Assembly (NCBI GenBank): GCA_030147505.1
Contig: JASBVG010000044.1
Span: 62,001 to 126,000 of the forward strand
Reading direction: 5' to 3'
Source: Tardiphaga sp.
Lineage (GTDB): Bacteria; Pseudomonadota; Alphaproteobacteria; Rhizobiales; Xanthobacteraceae
DNA length: 64,000 nucleotides
Shown here: one piece after another, positions 35,730-49,865 of the stretch
Layout of the letters: every line of letters starts with the position of its first letter
Position numbering within the stretch: the stretch's first letter is position 1
Notes under the pieces: model-generated
Seen by the model: only the letters and a program-made list of their open reading frames with translations
The model's database searches: none
Told to the model about the DNA's origin: nothing
Translations under genes and position numbers: made by a program

Positions 35730-37892
35730 TTACAGCAGCCCTGCGCCGCGCGCCCACTTGTACTTGGCGCCGAGCACTTCCACCGGAAGCTCCGTCGAAT
35801 AGGCGTAAGCCGGGATGCCATTCTGGTAGAGATATTCCGCGGCTTCCTCGACCTCGATGTCGCCGGCGAGCGAAGCGACCATCGGCTTTTCGATGCCCTT
35901 CTTCTTCATCTCGTTCTTGATCTCGACCATGTTCTTGGCGAACACCATCGGCGGCGTCACGATCGTGTGCCAGTAACCGAGGATCAGCGAGTGGATGCGC
36001 TCATCCTCGAGACCGAGCTTCACCGTGTTCACATAGGTGATCGGCGGCTCGCCACCGGTGATGTCCACCGGATTGCCGGCGGCACCGAAGGGCGGGATGA
36101 ACTTGCGGAAGGCAGCGTCCAGATCCGGCGGCATCGCCATCAGCGACAGGCCGTTATCCACCACCGCGTCAGACAGCAGCACGCCCGAACCACCGGCACC
36201 GGTGATGATCAGCACGTTCTCGCCCTTCGGCGTCGGCAGCACCGGAATGCCGCGGGCGAATTCGAGCAGCTGCCGCAGCGAGCGGGCGCGGATGACGCCC
36301 GACTGCTTCAGCACGTCCTCATAGATCTTGTCGTTGCCGGCGAGCGCGCCGGTATGCGACGAGGCCGCCTTGGCGCCGGCCGAGGTACGACCCGCCTTGA
36401 GCACGACCACCGGCTTCTTCTTAGAGACGCGCTTGGCGGCTTCCGCGAAGGCACGGCCGTCCTTCAGATCCTCGCAGTGCTGCGCGATGATGTTGGTGTT
36501 CGGGTCCTGCTCGAAGAAAGCAAGCAGATCGTCCTCGTCGATATCCGATTTGTTGCCGAGACCAACAATGGCCGAGACGCCCATCTTTGCCGAACGCGAG
36601 AAGCCGATGATCGCCATGCCGATGCCGCCGGACTGTGACGACAGCGCCGCCGAGCCCTTCACGTCGTAGGCGGTACAGAAGGTCGCGCAGAGATTCGACG
36701 GCGTATAGTAGAAGCCGTAGATATTCGGCCCCATCAGGCGCACATCATACTTCTTGCCGATGGCGACGATCTCTTCCTGCAGCTCGGGCTCGTTGGCTTC
36801 GGCGAAGCCCGACGGGATCAGCACCGCGCCCGGAATTTTCTTCTCGCCGCATTCGGTCAGCGCGCCAGCCACGAATTTCGCGGGGATCGCGAACACCGCA
36901 GTGTCAATCACACCCGGCACATCCTTGACGCTCTTATAGGCCTTGCGGCCCATGATCTCGTCGGCCTTCGGATGGATCGGATAGATCTCGCCTTTGTAGC
37001 CACCGTTGATGAGGTTCTTCATCACCGAATTGCCGATCTTGCCGTCTTCGGCAGAGGCACCGATCACGGCAACGGCCTTCGGCATCATGATGCGGTTCAT
37101 TGCCGCAACGATTTCTTCCTTGGCACGCGGGGCCGGCTTCGGCTTGTAGTCGAAATCGACGACGATGCGGACGTCGGCCGCGATCGCATCCTTCTTGGTG
37201 GCGAACACCGGATTGAGGTCGAGCTCAACCATTTCCGGGAAATCGCTCACGAGCTGCGAGACCTTGACGATGATATCGGCCAGCGCCTCGCGATTGGCGG
37301 GATCGCCGCCGCGCACGCCGTGCAGCATCTCGGCGGCCTGGATGCCATCGAGCATCGACAGCGCGTCTTCATTGGTGGCGGGCGCGAGACGGAAGGTCAC
37401 GTCCTTCAGCACCTCGACCAGCACACCGCCGAGGCCGAACGCAACCAGCTTGCCGAACGAACCGTCGGTGATCGAGCCGATGATCACTTCGGTGCCGCCC
37501 ATCAGCATCTGCTGGACCTGGACACCCTCGATCTTCGCATCGGCCTTGTACTTCTTCGCATTGGCCAGAATGGTGTCATAGGCCTTCTGCGCGTCTTCAG
37601 CAGTCTTCACGCCGACGATGACGCCGCCGGCTTCGGTCTTGTGGAGAATGTCGGGCGACACGATCTTCATCACCACCGGAAAGCCCATGCCACCGGCGAG
37701 CTTGGCTGCATCCGCTGCCGAAGTGGCGACGCCCTCTTTCGGAACGGGAATGCCATAGGCGTCACAAACGAGCTTGCCTTCCGGTGCTGTCAGGCTGGTG
37801 CGCTTGTCCGCCTTGACGGCGTCGAGCACTTTTCGCACGGCATCTTTCGCCGAGGCGGGTGCTTCTTTGACGGCGAGATTCGATTGAGACAT
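35730..37892 (-). CDS. acetate-CoA ligase (ADP-forming) family acyl-CoA synthetase, ATP-grasp + CoA-binding
   Basis: 'GGMGFPVVMKIVSPDILHKTEAGGVIVGVKTAEDAQKAYDTI', 'PKAVAVIGASAEDGKIGNSVMKNLINGGYKGEIYPIHPKADEIMGRKAYKSVKDVPG', 'SSHTGALAGNDKIYEDVLKQSGVIR'. Confidence 0.9.
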   Translation of the reverse strand: MSQSNLAVKEAPASAKDAVRKVLDAVKADKRTSLTAPEGKLVCDAYGIPVPKEGVATSAADAAKLAGGMGFPVVMKIVSPDILHKTEAGGVIVGVKTAEDAQKAYDTILANAKKYKADAKIEGVQVQQMLMGGTEVIIGSITDGSFGKLVAFGLGGVLVEVLKDVTFRLAPATNEDALSMLDGIQAAEMLHGVRGGDPANREALADIIVKVSQLVSDFPEMVELDLNPVFATKKDAIAADVRIVVDFDYKPKPAPRAKEEIVAAMNRIMMPKAVAVIGASAEDGKIGNSVMKNLINGGYKGEIYPIHPKADEIMGRKAYKSVKDVPGVIDTAVFAIPAKFVAGALTECGEKKIPGAVLIPSGFAEANEPELQEEIVAIGKKYDVRLMGPNIYGFYYTPSNLCATFCTAYDVKGSAALSSQSGGIGMAIIGFSRSAKMGVSAIVGLGNKSDIDEDDLLAFFEQDPNTNIIAQHCEDLKDGRAFAEAAKRVSKKKPVVVLKAGRTSAGAKAASSHTGALAGNDKIYEDVLKQSGVIRARSLRQLLEFARGIPVLPTPKGENVLIITGAGGSGVLLSDAVVDNGLSLMAMPPDLDAAFRKFIPPFGAAGNPVDITGGEPPITYVNTVKLGLEDERIHSLILGYWHTIVTPPMVFAKNMVEIKNEMKKKGIEKPMVASLAGDIEVEEAAEYLYQNGIPAYAYSTELPVEVLGAKYKWARGAGLL

Positions 37893-37931: not shown

Positions 37932-37948
37932 TGGCATTTGGTATGCCA
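37932..37948. promoter_or_regulatory. GntR-type operator TGGCAT-TTGGT-ATGCCA (acyl-CoA synthetase side)
   Basis: Perfect 6-bp arms, 5-bp spacer; 40 bp upstream of the acyl-CoA synthetase start. Confidence 0.75.
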
Positions 37949-38012
37949 GAAAATCGAAAGTCAAGGCGCGGTGCAGCGCAAAATTGCTGAAATAGCCGCC
38001 AGCTTGACACGC

Positions 38013-38029
38013 TGGCATCTGGCATGCCA
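38013..38029. promoter_or_regulatory. GntR-type operator TGGCAT-CTGGC-ATGCCA (gntR side)
   Basis: Perfect 6-bp arms; directly downstream of TTGACA (38004-38009); 53 bp before gntR. Confidence 0.75.
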
Positions 38030-38897: not shown

Positions 38898-40628
38898 ATG
38901 TCCGCAGTTCACAGCATCGACACATCGACCGAACAGGATCTGACAGATGGCTTCCATCTGATCATCGATGCCCTCAAGCTGAACGGCCTCAACACGATCT
39001 ACGGTGTCCCCGGCATTCCGATCACCGATTTCGGCCGCATGGCGCAGGCTGAAGGTATTCGTGTTCTCTCTTTCCGCCACGAACAGGCCGCAGGCTATGC
39101 CGCGTCGATCGCCGGCTATCTCACCAAGAAGCCGGGCGTGTGTCTCACGGTGTCGGCGCCGGGCTTCCTCAATGGCCTCACGGCGCTGGCCCACGCCACC
39201 ACCAACTGTTTCCCGATGATCCTGATCTCGGGTTCTTCCGAACGTGAGATCGTCGATCTGCAGCAGGGCGACTATGAGGAAATGGACCAGCTCGCGATTG
39301 CAAAACCGCTATGTAAAGCTGCGTTCCGCGTGCTGCATGCGCAGGATATCGGCATCGGCCTCGCCCGCGCGATCCGCGCGGCGGTGTCCGGTCGTCCCGG
39401 CGGCGTCTATCTCGATCTGCCCGCCAAACTTTTCGGCCAGGTGATGAATGCCGAAGCCGGCAAGAAGTCGCTGGTCAAAGTGATCGACGCCGCACCGGCG
39501 CAGATTCCTGCCCCGGACAGCATCAAGCGCGCGCTCGATGTGCTGAAGTCGGCAAAGAAGCCGCTGATCATTCTCGGCAAGGGCGCTGCTTACGCGCAGG
39601 CCGATGAGGCCGTGAAAGCCCTCGTCGAGACCTCGGGCATTCCGTTCCTGCCCATGAGCATGGCCAAGGGCCTCCTCCCCGACACCCATCCGCAATGCGC
39701 CGGCGCTGCACGTTCCACCGTGCTCAAGGACAGCGACGTCGTTATGCTGATCGGTGCCCGCCTGAACTGGCTGCTCTCGCACGGCAAGGGCAAGGCCTGG
39801 GGCGATGCGCCGAAGAAGTTCATCCAGATCGACATCGAGCCGAAGGAAATGGATTCCAACGTCGAGATCGTCGCGCCCGTGGTCGGCGACATCGGCTCCT
39901 GCGTTGCCGCTTTGCTCGATGGCATGGGCAAGAGCTGGACGAAGGCCTCCGCTGACTGGACCGGCGCTGTCACCAAAAAGCGCGACGAGAACGTTGCGAA
40001 GATGGCGCCAAAACTGATGAATAACAACTCGCCGATGGATTACCACGGCGCGCTGGGCGTTCTCCGTACCATCATTGCGGAGCGTCCCGATGCGATGCTC
40101 GTCAACGAAGGCGCCAACACGCTCGATCTCGCCCGCGGCATCGTCGACATGTACAAGCCGCGCAAGCGCATCGATGTCGGCACCTGGGGCATCATGGGCA
40201 TCGGCATGGGCTATTGCATCGCCGCCGCCGTGGAGACCGGCAAGCCGGTGCTAGCCATCGAAGGCGACAGCGCCTTCGGCTTCAGCGGCATGGAGGTCGA
40301 GACCATCTGCCGCTACAACCTGCCGGTCTGCATCGTCGTCTTCAACAATGACGGCATCTATCGCGGCACCGACGTCAATCCGACCGGTGGCCCGGACGTC
40401 GCCCCCACCGTCTTCGTCAAGGGCTCGCGCTACGACATGATGATGCAAGCCTTTGGCGGCGTCGGCGTGAACGCGACCTCGCCCGACGAGCTCAAGCGCG
40501 CCGTCAACGAGGCGATGGATAGCGGCAAGCCGACGCTCATCAATGCGGTGATCGATCCCGCCGCCGGCAGCGAAAGCGGCCGCATCGGTAACCTCAATCC
40601 GCAGAGCGTTTTGAGCAAAAAGAAATAA
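38898..40628 (+). CDS. oxc: oxalyl-CoA decarboxylase (ThDP-dependent)
   Basis: ThDP-enzyme '[64 protein letters not shown]', '[36 protein letters not shown]'; followed by frc. Confidence 0.95.
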
Positions 40629-40722: not shown

Positions 40723-42000
40723 ATGACACAGGCGCTCAAAGGCGTTCGCATTCTCGACTTCACCCATGTGCAATCGGGCCCGACCTGCACGCAGCTTCTG
40801 GCCTGGTTCGGCGCCGACGTGATCAAGGTCGAGCGTCCGGGCGTCGGCGACATCACCCGCGGTCAGCTGCAGGACATCCCGAATGTGGACAGCCTGTATT
40901 TCACCATGCTGAACCACAACAAGCGCTCCATCACCCTCGACACCAAGAACCCGAAGGGCAAGGAAGTGCTCACCGCGCTGATGAAGCAGTGCGACGTTCT
41001 CGTCGAGAATTTTGGACCAGGCGTGCTCGATCGCATGGGATTCCCGTTCGAGAAGATCCAGGAGATCAACCCGAAGATGATCGTCGCATCGATCAAGGGT
41101 TTTGGTCCCGGCCCCTATGAAGACTGCAAGGTCTATGAGAACGTCGCGCAGTGCACCGGCGGCGCCGCCTCCACCACCGGCTTCCGCGATGGCCTGCCGC
41201 TCGTCACCGGCGCGCAGATCGGCGACAGCGGCACCGGCCTGCATCTCGCACTGGGCATCGTCACGGCGCTGTATCAGCGCACGCAGACCGGCAAGGGCCA
41301 GAAGGTCACCGCCGCCATGCAGGACGGCGTGCTGAATCTCTCGCGCGTCAAGATGCGCGACCAGCAGCGCCTCGCCCATGGCCCGCTCAAGGAATACAGC
41401 CAGTTCGGCGAAGGTGTTCCGTTCGGCGATGCCGTGCCCCGCGCCGGCAACGACAGCGGCGGCGGCCAGCCGGGCCGCATCCTGAAGTGCAAGGGCTGGG
41501 AGACCGACCCGAACGCCTATATTTACTTCATCACCCAGGCGCCGGTGTGGGAGAAGATCTGCGACGTGATCGGCGAGCCGACCTGGAAGACCGACCCTAA
41601 CTATTCGAAGCCGGCCGTGCGCCTGCCGCGCCTCAACGAGATCTTCGCCCGCATCGAGCAGTGGACGATGACCAAGACCAAGTTCGAGGCGATGGAAATC
41701 CTCAACAAGGACGACATCCCCTGCGGTCCGATCCTATCCATGAAGGAAATCGCCGAGGACAAGTCGCTCTACGCCACCGGCACCATGGTCAAGGTCGATC
41801 ACCCCGAGCGCGGCGAATATCTCTCGGTCGGCAACCCGATCAAGCTGTCCGACTCGCCGACCAAGGTCGAGCGTTCGCCACTGCTCGGCGAGCACACCGA
41901 TGAAATCCTCAAGCAGGTGCTCGGCTTCAGCGATCACCAGGTCGCCGAAATCCACGACTCGGGCGCGCTAGATCCGCCGCGAAAGGTCGCTGCTGAGTAA
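40723..42000 (+). CDS. frc: formyl-CoA:oxalate CoA-transferase
   Basis: '[69 protein letters not shown]', family III CoA-transferase, adjacent to oxc. Confidence 0.95.
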
Positions 42001-42171: not shown

Positions 42172-42188
42172 TGGCATCTGGTATACGT
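42172..42188. promoter_or_regulatory. degenerate GntR-type operator TGGCAT-CTGGT-ATACGT upstream of small ORF
   Basis: Left arm exact, right arm 2 mismatches to ATRCCA; 55 bp before ATG 42243. Confidence 0.5.
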
Positions 42189-42242: not shown

Positions 42243-42380
42243 ATGTCCAAAACTGCTTCGCTCGGCCTCAGCGCCAATTCGAGCCTGTTCGGCCGCCTCC
42301 TCGCGTCGATCGATCGCGCGCTGATGGCCAGCGCCCGCATCTCGATCCGCAACGGCGACCTGCCGCGTTTCGGCCTCTGA
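42243..42380 (+). CDS. 45-aa small protein, single-gene unit between frc and tctC
   Basis: MSKTASLGLSANSSLFGRLLASIDRALMASARISIRNGDLPRFGL; own operator-bearing promoter and own terminator; SD-like 'aagggaa' upstream. Confidence 0.6.
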   Translation: MSKTASLGLSANSSLFGRLLASIDRALMASARISIRNGDLPRFGL

Positions 42381-42463: not shown

Positions 42464-42550
42464 GCCCCAAGGTTGCATTGCAGCGACACCTCCCGCTCCC
42501 TGCGACATATTAGCCTGTGCAGCTTTTAACAGCTCTAATCGCTTGCTGCT

Positions 42551-42567
42551 TGGCATATCGCATACCA
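42551..42567. promoter_or_regulatory. GntR-type operator TGGCAT-ATCGC-ATACCA upstream of tctC
   Basis: Fits TGGCAT-N5-ATRCCA; -35 TTGCTG (42543) and -10 CAAACT (42566) with 17-nt spacer. Confidence 0.75.
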
Positions 42568-42877
42568 AACTGCGCGGACGGTAATGCTTCAGGTTTGAAT
42601 AGAAAGCATACCGGGGGAGGACAAAGGCCGAGCTGCCCTCGAGGGGAGCGACGCCATACGCGCTATGAATCAGCGATCCAAACCCACTCACCCGATTTGC
42701 AGGCGAGCCGCTTCATTGGCTCGGCAGTCTGACGTGCGCATGTGGCGCATGCAAGGGCGTGCCCGATGGCCGGCTGATCGGAAACTCAAAGGACGATCGA
42801 CCACGCACTGACGCCTCTGCACTGACGATGACAAGTCGGCGAACGACCGACGCATCAAAACGAATGGGAGAGAAACA

Positions 42878-43903
42878 ATGAAACGCTTTGCCTCAAGACG
42901 CTTGGCTTCATGTCTCACGCTGGCCGCCGCGGCGTCCATTCTTGCCTTGGGGACGACCCTTCCTGCTTGCGCAGCATGGGAGCCCGTGAGGCCGGTCGAA
43001 TTCATCGTCCCGGCAGGCACCGGCGGTGGCGCTGATCAGATGGCGCGCACCATTCAGGGCATCATCACCAAGCACAATCTGATGAAGCAGCCGCTGGTCG
43101 TCATCAACAAGTCGGGCGGCGCCGGCGGCGAAGGTTTTCTCGATGTGAAGACCGCCAACAACAACCCCCACAAGATCATCATCACGCTGTCGAATCTGTT
43201 CACGACGCCGCTCGCGACAGGCATTCCCTTCAACTGGAAGGACATGACTCCGGTCGCCATGCTGGCGCTCGATGAGTTCGTCTTGTGGGTGAACGCTGAC
43301 AAGCCATACAAGACCGTGAAGGAATATATCGAGGCCGTGAAGGCCGCGCCCCCGGGCTCGATCAAGATGGGTGGCACCGGGTCGAAGCAGGAAGATCAGA
43401 TCATCACTGTTGCCATGGAAAAGGCGATCGGCAGCAAGTTCACCTACATCCCTTACAAGGGCGGCGGCGAAGTCGCGGTGCAGCTTGTTGGCGGGCATGT
43501 CGACTCCACCGTCAACAATCCGATCGAAGCCGTTGCCCAGTGGCGCGGCGGCAAGGTGCGTCCACTCTGCGTATTCGACAGCAAGGTGATGGCCTATGAC
43601 GAGCCGGTTGCCGACGGCAAGGCTTGGAAAGACATACCGACCTGCAAATCCCAGGGCCTAGACATCGAATATGTGATGCTGCGCGGCATCTTCATGTCGC
43701 CCAAGGCTACCAAGGATCAGATCGAATATTATGTCGAGCTGTTCAAGAAGGTGCGCGCCACGCCTGAATGGCAGGACCTGATGAAGAGCGGTGCGTTCAA
43801 CACCACCTTCATGACCGGCGGCGACTATGCCGGCTGGGTTGGCACGGAAGAGAAGCGCCACGAGACGCTGATGAAGGAAGCCGGCTTCCTCGCGAGCAAC
43901 TAA
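42878..43903 (+). CDS. tctC: tripartite tricarboxylate transporter substrate-binding protein TctC/Bug
   Basis: 'VRPVEFIVPAGTGGGADQMARTIQGIITKHNLMKQPLVVINKSGGAGGEGFLDVK'; followed by TctB/TctA genes. Confidence 0.92.
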   Translation: MKRFASRRLASCLTLAAAASILALGTTLPACAAWEPVRPVEFIVPAGTGGGADQMARTIQGIITKHNLMKQPLVVINKSGGAGGEGFLDVKTANNNPHKIIITLSNLFTTPLATGIPFNWKDMTPVAMLALDEFVLWVNADKPYKTVKEYIEAVKAAPPGSIKMGGTGSKQEDQIITVAMEKAIGSKFTYIPYKGGGEVAVQLVGGHVDSTVNNPIEAVAQWRGGKVRPLCVFDSKVMAYDEPVADGKAWKDIPTCKSQGLDIEYVMLRGIFMSPKATKDQIEYYVELFKKVRATPEWQDLMKSGAFNTTFMTGGDYAGWVGTEEKRHETLMKEAGFLASN

Positions 43904-43993: not shown

Positions 43994-44491
43994 ATGACCA
44001 CGCAACCATCTCACACCACAGGTCCGACTCATAAAGCGGTCGAGGCCGGCGTCACCACCGTCATCGGCCTGTTCGGCGCCCTTGTCGTCTATGGCAGCGT
44101 CAAAGCCGGCATCAATTGGGGCGCTGAAGGGCCTAAGGCCGGCTTCTTCCCGTTCTATATCGGCCTGTTCATCATCATCTCCAGCCTGATCAATCTCCTC
44201 AACACGCTGCGGGAAGAAGACGGACCGCTGTTCGCCGAATGGGGCCAGCTCGGCCAGGTGTTCAGCGTCATCATTCCCACCGGAATCTATGTGGCGTCCC
44301 TGCCTTTTGTCGGACTCTACCTGGCATCGATGATCTTCATCGCATGGTTCATGCGCTGGCTCGGCAAATATAACTGGCCGATCATCGCCGCGATCGCGCT
44401 CGGCATGCCGATCGTCACCTATCTCATTTTCGAACGCTGGTTCCTCGTGCCGCTCCCGAAGGGGCCGGTTGAGGAATGGCTTGGTCTGTAA
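43994..44491 (+). CDS. tctB: tripartite tricarboxylate transporter small permease TctB
   Basis: 4-TM about 165-aa protein between tctC and tctA; 'GPKAGFFPFYIGLFIIISSLINL'. Confidence 0.9.
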   Translation: MTTQPSHTTGPTHKAVEAGVTTVIGLFGALVVYGSVKAGINWGAEGPKAGFFPFYIGLFIIISSLINLLNTLREEDGPLFAEWGQLGQVFSVIIPTGIYVASLPFVGLYLASMIFIAWFMRWLGKYNWPIIAAIALGMPIVTYLIFERWFLVPLPKGPVEEWLGL

Positions 44492-44529: not shown

Positions 44530-46035
44530 ATGGAAGAACTCGTCAATCTATTCCACGGCTTCGCGGTCGCGCTGCAACCCTTCAATATTGCAGTGATGGT
44601 GCTCGGCATCGTGCTCGGCGTCATCATCGGCGTGCTGCCCGGTCTCGGCGGCGCCAATGGCGTCGCGATCCTGCTCCCTCTCACTTTCAGCATGCCGCCG
44701 ACTTCGGCAATCATCATGCTGTCCTGCATCTACTGGGGCGCACTGTTCGGAGGCGCGATCACCTCGATCCTGTTCAATATCCCTGGTGAACCATGGTCGG
44801 TGGCGACCACATTCGACGGCTACCCGATGGCCCAGCAGGGCAAGGCCGCTGAATCGCTCACCGCCGCCTTCACCTCCTCCTTCGTCGGCGCGCTGTTCGC
44901 AGTCGTCATGATCACACTGGTCGCGCCACTGGTTGCCGGCTTCGCCTTACGATTCGGGCCCGCGGAGAAATTCGCAGTCTATTTCCTGGCGTTCTGCAGT
45001 TTTGTCGGGCTGAGCAAGGAGCCGCCGTTCAAAACCATTGCGGCCATGATGATCGGTTTCGCTCTCGCAGCCGTCGGTCTCGACTCCATCACCGGCCAAC
45101 TCCGTCTTACCTTCGGCTCCACCGAACTGCTGAACGGCTTCGACTTCCTGATCGCGGTCATCGGCCTGTTCGGCCTCGGCGAAATCTTCCTGACCATGGA
45201 AGAAGGACTCAACTTCCGCGGCGGCAAGGCGAAGATCGATCTTCGCGTCGTGCTCCGCACCTGGATAAGCCTGCCGCAATACTGGATGACGTCGCTGCGC
45301 TCCTGCATCATCGGCTGCTGGATGGGCGTCACGCCGGCTGGTGCGACACCGGCGTCATTCATGAGCTACGGCATCGCCAAGCGTGTCTCCAAGAACGGCA
45401 AGAATTTTGGCAAGGGCGAGATCGAAGGCGTCATCGCGCCGGAGACCGCCGCGCACGCCGCCGGCACCTCGGCGCTGTTGCCGATGCTGTCGCTCGGCGT
45501 CCCCGGCTCGCCGACCGCAGCCGTGCTGCTCGGCGGCCTCCTGATCTGGGGCCTGCAGCCCGGCCCGATGCTGTTCGTCGAGCAGAAAGAGTTCGTCTGG
45601 GGCCTGATTGCCTCGATGTATCTCGGCAATCTCGTCGGCCTCATCATCGTGCTGACCTGTGTGCCGATCTTCGCCGCGATCCTGCGTGTACCCTTCAGCA
45701 TCATCGCGCCGCTGATTCTGGTGCTGTGTGCGATCGGCGCCTATTCCGTGCACAATTCCACTTTCGACGTGGTGATGATGCTGGTCTTCGGCGTGATCGG
45801 CTACGCGCTGAAGAAGTGCAACTACCCGCTGGCGCCGCTGGTGCTCGCCATCGTGCTCGGCGACAAGGCCGAAGAAGCCTTCCGTCAGTCCCTGCTCGGT
45901 TCGCAGGGATCGCTTGGGGTCTTCTTCTCCAATCCGCTGGTGAGCAGCATCATGATCCTCGGCCTGATCGCTTTGTTCTGGTCGGTGATCTCGAACGGTC
46001 TGAGCCGGATGCGCGCTCGCACTGCAACAGCGTAA
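44530..46035 (+). CDS. tctA: tripartite tricarboxylate transporter large permease TctA
   Basis: 'GVIIGVLPGLGGANGVAILLPLTFSMPPTSAIIMLSCIYWGALFGGAITSILFNIPGEPWSVATTFDGYPMAQQG'. Confidence 0.96.
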   Translation: MEELVNLFHGFAVALQPFNIAVMVLGIVLGVIIGVLPGLGGANGVAILLPLTFSMPPTSAIIMLSCIYWGALFGGAITSILFNIPGEPWSVATTFDGYPMAQQGKAAESLTAAFTSSFVGALFAVVMITLVAPLVAGFALRFGPAEKFAVYFLAFCSFVGLSKEPPFKTIAAMMIGFALAAVGLDSITGQLRLTFGSTELLNGFDFLIAVIGLFGLGEIFLTMEEGLNFRGGKAKIDLRVVLRTWISLPQYWMTSLRSCIIGCWMGVTPAGATPASFMSYGIAKRVSKNGKNFGKGEIEGVIAPETAAHAAGTSALLPMLSLGVPGSPTAAVLLGGLLIWGLQPGPMLFVEQKEFVWGLIASMYLGNLVGLIIVLTCVPIFAAILRVPFSIIAPLILVLCAIGAYSVHNSTFDVVMMLVFGVIGYALKKCNYPLAPLVLAIVLGDKAEEAFRQSLLGSQGSLGVFFSNPLVSSIMILGLIALFWSVISNGLSRMRARTATA

Positions 46036-46093: not shown

Positions 46094-46181
46094 GTTATCA
46101 ATGCGTGCTAGGCTTTGTGCAGCACAACATTCAGATATGCGAAACTAGCTGCGACAAACTGTCAAAATTCTGCTTGTTAGT

Positions 46182-46198
46182 TGGCATATCATATACCA
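46182..46198. promoter_or_regulatory. GntR-type operator TGGCAT-ATCAT-ATACCA upstream of oxlT-like gene 1
   Basis: -35 TTGTTA (46174), -10 CAAACT (46197), 17-nt spacer. Confidence 0.78.
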
Positions 46199-46252
46199 AA
46201 CTCCCGATTGCAGCTGTCGGATACGAAATAGAACAGCGCATTAGGAGGAAGT

Positions 46253-47542
46253 ATGACTGATGCAGTTCACGGTGCGGCGCCTACGGCCGCGCGCGTTAGC
46301 GATACCTATCGCTGGACCCAACTCGCCATCGGCGTCGGTGCCATGGTGATGATCGCCAACTACCAATATGGCTGGACGTTCTTCGTCCCCGATATCCAGA
46401 AGAAATTCGGCTGGGACCGCGCCTCGATCCAGTGGGCCTTTACGCTGTTCGTGCTGTTCGAGACCTGGCTGGTGCCGGTGGAAGGATGGTTCGTCGATAA
46501 ATACGGTCCCAAGATCGTCGTTCTCGTCGGTGGTATCCTTTGCGCGGTCGGCTGGGCGATCAATGCGCAGGCGACCACACTCAACGGCTTCTATCTCGGC
46601 ATGATCATCGCAGGCATCGGCGCTGGTGGCGTCTACGGTACCTGCGTCGGCAATGCGCTGAAGTGGTTTCCCGACAAGCGCGGCCTCGCAGCCGGCATCA
46701 CGGCCGCAGGCTTCGGCGCCGGTTCGGCGCTGACCGACGCGCCGATCCAGGCGATGATCAAGGATTCCGGCTTCCAGACCACGTTCCTCTATTTCGGTCT
46801 CGGCCAGGGCATCATCATCGTGATCCTCGCCTTCTTCCTGTTCGCGCCGAAGGCGGGCCAGGTGCCGGCAGTGGTTCAGAACGCCAACATCATCCAGACA
46901 CGCCGCAACTACGCTCCAACCGAAGTCATCCGCCATCCGATCTTCTGGCTGATGTACTTCATGTTCGTCATCGTCGGTGCCGGCGGCCTGATGGTGACGG
47001 CGAACCTCAAGCCGATCGCTGCCGACTGGAAGATCGACAATGTGCCGGTGACGCTGATGGCCATGACGATGACCGCGGTCACCTTCGCAGCCACCATTGA
47101 CCGCGTGCTCAACGGCCTGACACGTCCGTTCTTCGGCTGGATCTCCGACATGATCGGCCGCGAGAACACCATGTTCATCGCCTTCGGCATGGAAGGCCTC
47201 GGCATCTGGGCGCTGTATATGTGGGGCCAGGATCCCTTGTGGTTCGTGCTGCTGTCGGGCTTCGTGTTCTTCGCCTGGGGCGAGATCTACTCGCTCTTCC
47301 CGTCGACCTGCACGGACACCTTCGGCTCCAAATTCGCGACCACCAATGCCGGCCTGCTCTACACGGCCAAGGGCACGGCGGCGCTGCTGGTCCCTGTCGC
47401 CAACTACATGCAGCAGGGCTCCGGCAATTGGGACAGCGTGTTCCTGATCGCCGCCGGCGCCAACATCCTCGCCTCGGTGCTCGCAATCGCGGTGCTCAAG
47501 CCCTGGCGCAAGGTGGTGGTGAGCAAGGCGATGGCCTCCTAA
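46253..47542 (+). CDS. oxlT: MFS oxalate/formate antiporter-like protein 1
   Basis: 'RWTQLAIGVGAMVMIANYQYGWTFFVPDIQKKFGWDRASIQWAFTLFVLFETWLVPVEGWFVDKYGP' OxlT-type MFS; oxalate gene context. Confidence 0.88.
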   Translation: MTDAVHGAAPTAARVSDTYRWTQLAIGVGAMVMIANYQYGWTFFVPDIQKKFGWDRASIQWAFTLFVLFETWLVPVEGWFVDKYGPKIVVLVGGILCAVGWAINAQATTLNGFYLGMIIAGIGAGGVYGTCVGNALKWFPDKRGLAAGITAAGFGAGSALTDAPIQAMIKDSGFQTTFLYFGLGQGIIIVILAFFLFAPKAGQVPAVVQNANIIQTRRNYAPTEVIRHPIFWLMYFMFVIVGAGGLMVTANLKPIAADWKIDNVPVTLMAMTMTAVTFAATIDRVLNGLTRPFFGWISDMIGRENTMFIAFGMEGLGIWALYMWGQDPLWFVLLSGFVFFAWGEIYSLFPSTCTDTFGSKFATTNAGLLYTAKGTAALLVPVANYMQQGSGNWDSVFLIAAGANILASVLAIAVLKPWRKVVVSKAMAS

Positions 47543-47570
47543 CCATCCCCTTCAGAACTCACACGAATTC

Positions 47571-47597
47571 AACGCGCCCGGTTCGCCGGGCGCGTTT
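47571..47597 (+). terminator. Rho-independent terminator after oxlT-like gene 1
   Basis: aacgcgcccggttcgccgggcgcgtttt. Confidence 0.78.
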
Positions 47598-47680
47598 TCG
47601 TTTGCCGCAACACAGGCGCCGAACACCGCTGCGGCGCAGCAACAAAATCCGCGTGATCGGCCAAGTTCCGTGTTGCGTCA

Positions 47681-47697
47681 TGGCATTTAATATACCA
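47681..47697. promoter_or_regulatory. GntR-type operator TGGCAT-TTAAT-ATACCA upstream of oxlT-like gene 2
   Basis: -35 TTGCGT (47673), -10 CAGCCT (47696), 17-nt spacer. Confidence 0.75.
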
Positions 47698-47783
47698 GCC
47701 TTCATCTGCGCTTGCGGCAATAAGCCACACACCTGCGACAGCCCGTCGCAGAAGAGAAGCAACAGCGCACATTGGGAGGTCCG

Positions 47784-49100
47784 ATGATTTCGCAAATTGA
47801 TTCCGCGCAGAACCCTGCCTCGCCGTCCGGCAACTTCCGCTGGCTCCAGCTGGCGATGGGCATCGTCTGCATGGCGATGATCGCCAATCTTCAATATGGC
47901 TGGACCCTGTTCGTCGATCCCATCGACGCCAAGCATCACTGGGGCCGCGCCTCGATCCAGTTTGCGTTCACGCTGTTCGTGCTCATCGAGACCTGGCTCG
48001 TGCCCGTCGAGGCATGGTTCGTCGACAAATACGGCCCCCGTATCGTCATCATGTTCGGTGGCGTGATGATCAGCATCGCGTGGATTCTCAACTCCTATGC
48101 CGACACGCTCGCGATGCTTTATGCCGGCGCCGTGATCGGCGGCATCGGCGCAGGCGCGGTCTATGGCACATGCGTGGGCAATGCGTTGAAGTGGTTTCCC
48201 GATCGCCGCGGCCTTGCCGCCGGCGCCACCGCTGCCGGCTTTGGCGCAGGCGCAGCACTCACCGTCGTGCCCATCGCGCACGTCATCGCAGAAAATGGCT
48301 ATCAGACGGCGTTCTTCGATTTCGGCATCGGCCAGGGCGTTATCGTCGTGCTGCTCGCGCTGTTCATGCGCCCGCCAACGCAGGTTATGCCGATGCGCAA
48401 GAAGCAGCTCAATCTGCCGCAGTCCAGGATCGATTTCACGCCGCCGCAGGTGCTGCGCAGCCCGATCTTCTGGGTGATGTATCTGGTCTTCGTGATGGTC
48501 GCTGCCGGCGGCCTGATGACCGCGGCACAGATCGCCCCTATCGCGCACGACTTCAAGATCGCCGACACACCCGTCAGCCTCGCCGGCTTCCAGATGGCCG
48601 CACTCACTTTTGCGATTTCACTGGATCGCATCTTCGACGGTTTCGGACGCCCCATCTTCGGCTGGATTTCGGATACGATCGGGCGCGAGCCAACGATGTT
48701 CATCGCCTTCGGCACGGCGGCGCTGATGCTGCTGACGCTGTCGGCCTACGGCCATAACCCGATCGTCTTCGTGCTCGCGACGGCGGTCTATTTCGGTGTG
48801 TTCGGCGAGATCTACAGTCTCTTCCCGGCCACCTGCGGAGATACGTTCGGTGCGAAATTCGCGGCCACGAACAATGGCATGCTCTACACGGCAAAGGGCA
48901 CGGCCTCGCTGCTGGTGCCCCTCGCCAGCGTGATCGCGGCAACCTATGGCTGGAAGTCGGTCTTCGTCATCGCCGTCGCCCTGAACGCCACGGCAGCGCT
49001 GCTGGCGCTGTTCGTGATCAAGCCGATGCGACGCACGTTCATTCTCGGTACCGAACCTGTTGCGGCAGAAGCCTCGGCCCAGGGCGCCAGGATCGCCTGA
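47784..49100 (+). CDS. MFS oxalate/formate antiporter-like protein 2
   Basis: 'RWLQLAMGIVCMAMIANLQYGWTLFVDPIDAKHHWGRASIQFAFTLFVLIETWLVPVEAWFVDKYGP', clear paralogue of the preceding gene; SD gggagg before ATG 47784. Confidence 0.88.
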   Translation: MISQIDSAQNPASPSGNFRWLQLAMGIVCMAMIANLQYGWTLFVDPIDAKHHWGRASIQFAFTLFVLIETWLVPVEAWFVDKYGPRIVIMFGGVMISIAWILNSYADTLAMLYAGAVIGGIGAGAVYGTCVGNALKWFPDRRGLAAGATAAGFGAGAALTVVPIAHVIAENGYQTAFFDFGIGQGVIVVLLALFMRPPTQVMPMRKKQLNLPQSRIDFTPPQVLRSPIFWVMYLVFVMVAAGGLMTAAQIAPIAHDFKIADTPVSLAGFQMAALTFAISLDRIFDGFGRPIFGWISDTIGREPTMFIAFGTAALMLLTLSAYGHNPIVFVLATAVYFGVFGEIYSLFPATCGDTFGAKFAATNNGMLYTAKGTASLLVPLASVIAATYGWKSVFVIAVALNATAALLALFVIKPMRRTFILGTEPVAAEASAQGARIA

Positions 49101-49124
49101 TCAAGGTCGTCTGTCTGGACACGT

Positions 49125-49157
49125 AAATGCGCTCATCCGCAACGATGAGCGCATTTT
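49125..49157 (+). terminator. Rho-independent terminator after oxlT-like gene 2
   Basis: AAATGCGCTCATCCGCAACGATGAGCGCATTTTT. Confidence 0.85.
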
Positions 49158-49343
49158 TCGTGCGGCATCCTTGCGGCACGCCAGCGGCAGCACAGAGGCA
49201 CCGAAAGCCGTCGTGGCATGCCAGATTCCTAACTACGAAATTTCGTCATGCCGAAACAGGCGCGCGGAAACGCACAGAAATGGCAGCATTACTGCCCCTT
49301 CTGCAGATTTTGGTTGTAGTTCCCGATATCACGCGTTGACAAC

Positions 49344-49360
49344 TGGCATACCATATACCA
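49344..49360. promoter_or_regulatory. GntR-type operator TGGCAT-ACCAT-ATACCA upstream of CBS-domain gene
   Basis: -35 TTGACA (49336), -10 CAATCT (49359), 17-nt spacer. Confidence 0.78.
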
Positions 49361-49433
49361 ATCTTGACCCTGCGAGATCGATCCTTAGCCGATCAGCCAA
49401 ATTACAGATCTCGGGATAATCAGGGAGGTTGCC

Positions 49434-49865
49434 ATGCAAGTCGGAGACGTTCTGCGTCGTAAGAGCACCCGTATCGCCACGGTCCGTATGAACGAGACCG
49501 TCGCCATTGCCGCCCAGCTCCTCCGCACCGCGAATATCAGCGCGCTCGTGGTGAAGGACGTGTGCCGTACCGAGGGCAACACGGCCGTCGGCATGTTCTC
49601 GGAGCGCGATGTCGTGCGCGCCATCGCCGAACACGGCGCCGCCGGCGTCAATCGCAAGGTGTCCGAGATGATCTCGGTGCAGCAGCTCATCTCCTGCTCT
49701 TCCACCGATACGCTGGAGCATGTACGCTGTCTGATGAACCGGCACCACATTCGTCATGTCCCGGTGATCGACGACTACACCCTGGTCGGCGTGATCAGCA
49801 TCCGCGACATCAGCCGTGCGCTCGATCATGATGACGCGCCGCAGCTGCACGCTGCCGTGGCCTGA
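49434..49865 (+). CDS. tandem CBS-domain protein
   Basis: 'MQVGDVLRRKSTRIATVRMNETVAIAAQLLRTANISALVVKD...GMFSERDVVRAIAEHG...IRHVPVIDDYTLVGVISIRDISRAL'. Confidence 0.93.
   Translation: MQVGDVLRRKSTRIATVRMNETVAIAAQLLRTANISALVVKDVCRTEGNTAVGMFSERDVVRAIAEHGAAGVNRKVSEMISVQQLISCSSTDTLEHVRCLMNRHHIRHVPVIDDYTLVGVISIRDISRALDHDDAPQLHAAVA

Follow-up and report, generated by a model that had tools for sequence, protein, structure and literature searches.

Four promoters of an oxalate-use gene cluster in Tardiphaga sp. carry a 17-bp operator between a TTG-type -35 and a weak -10-like hexamer, always in the same register, and this geometry is conserved among relatives. The cluster lies in the 64,000-nt stretch of DNA analysed here (the window) and contains oxc, frc, two oxalate/formate antiporter genes, tctCBA, a CBS-domain gene, a divergent CoA ligase gene and gntR (Table 1). 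Together with its operators, it makes a well-supported case for a new oxalate regulon whose mechanism would be of the classical, textbook kind. The reading that we favour, with a probability of roughly 0.8, is that the operators belong to an FCD-type GntR protein and sit in sigma-70-class promoters, where a dimer of this protein would repress by blocking RNA polymerase.

The nearest named relatives of the frc gene come from Tardiphaga and Bradyrhizobium. Our search of open-access full texts, with subscription literature outside its reach, returned no named oxalate-responsive GntR regulator. The texts of a study of FadR-subfamily regulators (PMC4494728) and of a Bradyrhizobium dRNA-seq paper (PMC4842269) make no mention of oxalate. 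The regulon is concrete and testable, and it concerns how bacteria of a plant-associated group (Bradyrhizobium, Tardiphaga, Afipia) use oxalate.

Table 1 Genes, operators and promoter elements of the oxalate cluster, in window coordinates.
Feature	Position	Strand	Basis
acs, NDP-forming acyl-CoA ligase family protein	35730..37892	-	ATP-grasp_5, Succ_CoA_lig and Ligase_CoA_2 domains; under NCBIfam equivalog cut-offs
acs operator TGGCATACCAAATGCCA, putative -10 CCAAAT inside	37932..37948	-	relatives
acs -35 TTGACT	37959..37964	-	direct read; relatives
gntR -35 TTGACA, 3 nt before operator	38004..38009	+	offset kept in 49 unique gntR promoters
gntR operator TGGCATCTGGCATGCCA, presumed autoregulatory	38013..38029	+	direct read; relatives
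gntR, GntR-type regulator with FCD domain, presumed repressor, 243 aa	38082..38813	+	Pfam GntR E=1.9e-12, FCD E=1.1e-22
oxc, oxalyl-CoA decarboxylase	38898..40628	+	TIGR03254 above cut-off
frc, formyl-CoA transferase	40723..42000	+	TIGR03253 above cut-off
45-aa ORF operator TGGCATCTGGTATACGT, degenerate but conserved, over TGGTATAC extended -10-like element	42172..42188	+	present in all of about 30 aligned loci
45-aa ORF, conserved	42243..42377	+	tblastn in about 30 loci, 57-76% identity
tctC -35 TTGCTG	42543..42548	+	TTG at -8 in 15/16 unique tctC-group operators
tctC operator TGGCATATCGCATACCA	42551..42567	+	direct read; operator pattern in relatives
tctC -10 CAAACT, predicted start near 42578	42566..42571	+	17-nt spacer; T6 kept in 13/16
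tctC, tripartite tricarboxylate transporter receptor	42878..43903	+	PF03401
tctB	43994..44491	+	PF07331
tctA	44530..46035	+	PF01970
oxlT1 -35 TTGTTA	46174..46179	+	direct read; footprinting
oxlT1 operator TGGCATATCATATACCA	46182..46198	+	direct read; operator pattern in relatives
oxlT1 -10 CAAACT, predicted start near 46209	46197..46202	+	T6 kept in 43/46 oxlT-group operators
oxlT1, oxalate/formate MFS antiporter	46253..47542	+	TIGR04259 above cut-off
oxlT2 -35 TTGCGT	47673..47678	+	direct read
oxlT2 operator TGGCATTTAATATACCA	47681..47697	+	direct read; operator pattern in relatives
oxlT2 -10 CAGCCT, predicted start near 47708	47696..47701	+	direct read; footprinting
oxlT2, oxalate/formate MFS antiporter	47784..49100	+	TIGR04259 above cut-off
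CBS -35 TTGACA	49336..49341	+	TTGAC invariant, 22/22 unique CBS operators
CBS operator TGGCATACCATATACCA	49344..49360	+	direct read; operator pattern in relatives
CBS -10 CAATCT, predicted start near 49371	49359..49364	+	T6 in 22/22
CBS-domain protein	49434..49865	+	two CBS stretches, PF00571

Operators in the spacer of four promoters

The promoters of tctC, oxlT1, oxlT2 and the CBS gene follow a single layout: TTGNNN, 2 nt, then TGGCAT-N5-ATACCA, the final CA of the operator opening the -10-like hexamer. Read directly, the distance from TTGNNN to this hexamer is 17 nt in all four, so that the operator occupies 15 of the 17 spacer positions and the first two bases of the -10. An earlier, sequence-only reading had proposed this arrangement, and its coordinates for the four promoters agree with the sequence to the base; so does its placing of a TTGACA 3 nt before the gntR operator. 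The predicted start sites (Table 1) are plausible.

Within 60 nt upstream, TTG at offset -8 is the sole trinucleotide common to all four operators at one offset; downstream, none is common at any one offset. When four random window positions took the place of the operators, 0.12% of trials had some trinucleotide in common at one of the 58 offsets, and not one of 20,000 had a common TTG. The TTG layout is thus not a product of chance.

Each -10 hexamer agrees with TATAAT at 2-3 of its 6 positions. Because its first two bases belong to the operator, only T at position 6 (T6) is independent evidence for a -10. A plain sigma-70 scan reports none of the four promoters, owing to these weak hexamers. 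The fixed 17-nt register offers a way to find such non-consensus promoters, which a standard scan misses.

Further features lie near these promoters. The predicted tctC leader (42578-42877) runs to about 300 nt, its counterparts in relatives to 250-330 nt; a riboswitch in it was rejected, Rfam giving no match between 37500 and 50200. A short hairpin, GTCGG-N7-CCGAC (42835-42851), lies about 27 nt ahead of the ATG of tctC and covaries in most relatives, with T-A or C-G at pair 2 and G-C, A-T or C-G at pair 5. Upstream of the CBS operator there is a second, TGGYATRCCWGA-like site (window 49214-49230), which about half of the relatives have at 120-150 nt from that operator; it is conserved at a varying distance, and we considered it as a loop partner of the CBS operator.

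Conservation of the promoter geometry

We fetched 80 loci around frc and placed their genes by tblastn. Operators were gathered within 350 nt upstream of the genes by the operator pattern alone, with at most one mismatch and without use of the TTG; after removal of duplicates, 84 unique operators remained before tctC, oxlT and CBS genes. TTG stands at -8 in 79 of the 84, against 0-5 at every other offset from -38 to -3; these figures, like all those of the footprint, are counts over sequences related by descent, and neither probabilities nor independent observations. T6, the fourth base after the operator, is present in 78/84. A at position 2 (A2) and T6 occur together in 77 of 79 sequences at a 17-nt spacer, and in at most nine at the other spacers tried (11-23 nt). 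Bases in the TTG-operator gap and in the flanks are mostly near random among the 84, with the exception of CBS, where TTGAC is invariant. In an independent search of 200 genomes of the family, TTG-N5-TGGCAT-N5-ATACCA has 83 exact matches (a hand count), distributed over 43 genomes; the reversed pattern has none in the same 200.

In Bradyrhizobium, start-site mapping gives an RpoD-like consensus of TTG-N(16-18)-TATA, according to PMC4842269. The conserved TTG agrees with its -35, and the joint occurrence of A2 and T6 at 17 nt only agrees with its spacer. The -10 does not: in relatives it is a weak CANNNT with 2-4 of 6 matches to TATAAT, never TATA, and positions 2 and 6 alone match throughout. 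The same paper lists CTTG and a C before the -10 as RpoH-like features. A heat-shock-type sigma factor with a CTTG -35 could then read these promoters in place of the housekeeping one, as the C before TTG in 41/46 oxlT-group sites would suggest; but CBS sites mostly have a G in front of TTG, and the operator itself dictates the C that precedes the -10. We regard this alternative as unlikely, and the identity of the sigma factor would leave the repression model unchanged.

In tctC, oxlT and CBS the conservation of the TTG equals that of the operator arms, as it would if it were the outer part of an extended operator and the true promoter lay elsewhere. It is nonetheless a promoter element rather than a part of the operator, because the mirror-image CAA at the symmetric offset is found in only 2 of the 84 unique operators and because the gap between TTG and operator differs by promoter: 2 nt in the four above, 3 and 10 nt for the TTGACA of gntR and acs. 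Such a varying distance fits a -35 element. In addition, T6 is co-conserved at exactly 17 nt although it lies outside the operator, which leaves the extended operator highly improbable.

We looked for relatives that keep the TTG and -10 without the operator and found none usable; promoter and operator functions are therefore inseparable in this comparison. Perhaps operator and promoter evolved as one unit, with repression and basal strength tuned by shared bases, an idea that we put forward tentatively and consider rather doubtful. On this view the right arm also opens the -10, which is why it would have stayed the asymmetric ATACCA; the palindromic form, ATGCCA, would be disfavoured for setting the TG of an extended -10 ahead of that hexamer.

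The GntR regulator and its other putative sites

The gntR product combines an N-terminal GntR winged helix (PF00392, 47.1 bits against a cut-off of 27) with a C-terminal FCD domain (PF07729, 81.2 bits against 24.3), and FCD-type His residues are visible in its sequence. The NCBIfam search gave no equivalog at cut-off, NanR (NF003011) scoring 63.8 bits against the 260 required. No solved structure is close to the protein, the best being that of a GntR-family protein (E=1e-14).

A close GntR ortholog is encoded in 41 of the 43 genomes with the layout and in 20 of the 157 without it (Fisher p=5e-25, ignoring kinship). Its absence from the other two genomes, and the conservation of a similar motif, TGGTATACGGTATGCCA, before sucC and thus outside the cluster, would suit a different regulator that recognizes the same motif, with gntR a mere neighbour. 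Against this speak the co-occurrence itself and the gntR/acs divergon, which in nearly all Bradyrhizobiaceae loci has two operators, one near each gene. We therefore hold a different regulator to be quite improbable.

The sucC palindrome, TGGTATACGTTATGCCA, lies between mdh and sucC in the window's own genome (L088 5269-5285, C65). Of the 12 genomes examined within the genus, 11 conserve it, with TTGAC(A/T) upstream in most. Through it, the TCA operon may come under the oxalate regulator or under some other GntR protein. Two other operator matches were set aside. A perfect one upstream of a serine-glyoxylate aminotransferase gene (L089, about 5072) was rejected as a regulon member and is taken for chance, since it has no TTG at -8 and is absent from relatives; another (L090, about 5170) is outside a clear promoter context.

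The rule that the operator fills the spacer, as the sequence-only reading put it, is strongly supported by footprinting for the four promoters and does not extend to the whole regulon, as gntR, acs and the 45-aa ORF differ. In gntR the operator is one nucleotide farther from TTGACA than in the four, and no spacing of 17-20 nt yields A2 and T6 in most of its unique sequences. Before acs, TTGAC(A/T/G) stands 10 nt from the operator in 40 unique sequences; the T-ended hexamer at 17 nt, found in 40/40, falls within the operator. The operator of the 45-aa ORF covers a TATAC element, a putative -10.

This ORF (MSKTASLGL...NGDLPRFGL), between frc and tctC, has no Pfam match. About 55-60 nt ahead of its ATG stands an almost invariant TGGYATCTGGTATAC site; farther upstream, a conserved TGCTGC(C/T)ATGCAAACAA block is possibly the site of another regulator. 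The operators at 37932, 38013 and 42172 also have, by an outer arm, either TGGYAT directly repeated with a spacing of 7 bp or the 10-bp core TGGYATRCCA; these extra repeats resemble the additional GntR half-sites described in PMC4494728.

Proposed mechanism and known systems

We propose that TTG is the -35, and CANNNT 17 nt downstream the weak -10, of an ordinary sigma-70-class promoter. As long as no inducer is present, which would probably be oxalate or one of its CoA derivatives, a regulator dimer bound to the operator would deny RNA polymerase access to both elements, and the oxalate transporter genes and the CBS gene would stay off. The GntR protein would also act as a repressor of gntR itself and of the divergent CoA ligase gene, through sites that overlap their predicted core promoters. 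Steric repression, argued from position, is the best reading: it agrees with the geometry, with the autoregulatory sites of gntR and acs, and with the tendency of layout and GntR gene to occur in the same genomes.

An operator within the spacer and weak -10 boxes are also seen in activator-dependent promoters. MerR-type regulators activate from the spacer by untwisting it when it is over-long, and need 19-20 nt to do so. The spacers here measure 17 nt, the regulator encoded closest by belongs to the GntR/FCD type and not to MerR, and the same operator overlies gntR's own promoter and the putative acs -10. Activation of this kind is thus very unlikely, and repression remains our preferred reading.

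The system resembles FadR-subfamily (FCD) GntR repressors (PF00392+PF07729; PMC4494728) in its domains, in the divergence of the regulator gene from a target gene, each having a site close by, in the autoregulatory site and in TGG(T/C)AT-type half-sites, some with an extra adjacent half-site; divergons with separate sites, arranged like gntR/acs, are described in that study. It differs in the operator. In place of the compact NyGTM-N0-1-KACNy consensus, to which PMC4494728 itself gives exceptions, the common element is an inverted repeat of 17 bp around a 5-nt centre, TGGYAT-N5-ATRCCA.

NanR-type GntR regulators, which use TGGTATA direct repeats, have a very similar half-site (TGGTAT here). 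One of the weak NCBIfam matches of the gntR product is to NanR, and the gntR and 45-aa ORF operators hold TGG(C/T)AT direct repeats at 7-bp spacing. Unlike in NanR systems, what all promoters share is an inverted repeat, and the genes serve oxalate, not sialic acid.

With classical promoter-occluding repressors, the cluster has in common an operator that, given the predicted elements, lies over the core promoter, within the -35/-10 spacer and overlapping the -10, from where the regulator would block polymerase by position. What sets it apart from them is the exact 2-nt/17-nt register, repeated in four promoters, and the double use of operator bases as the first two bases of the -10.
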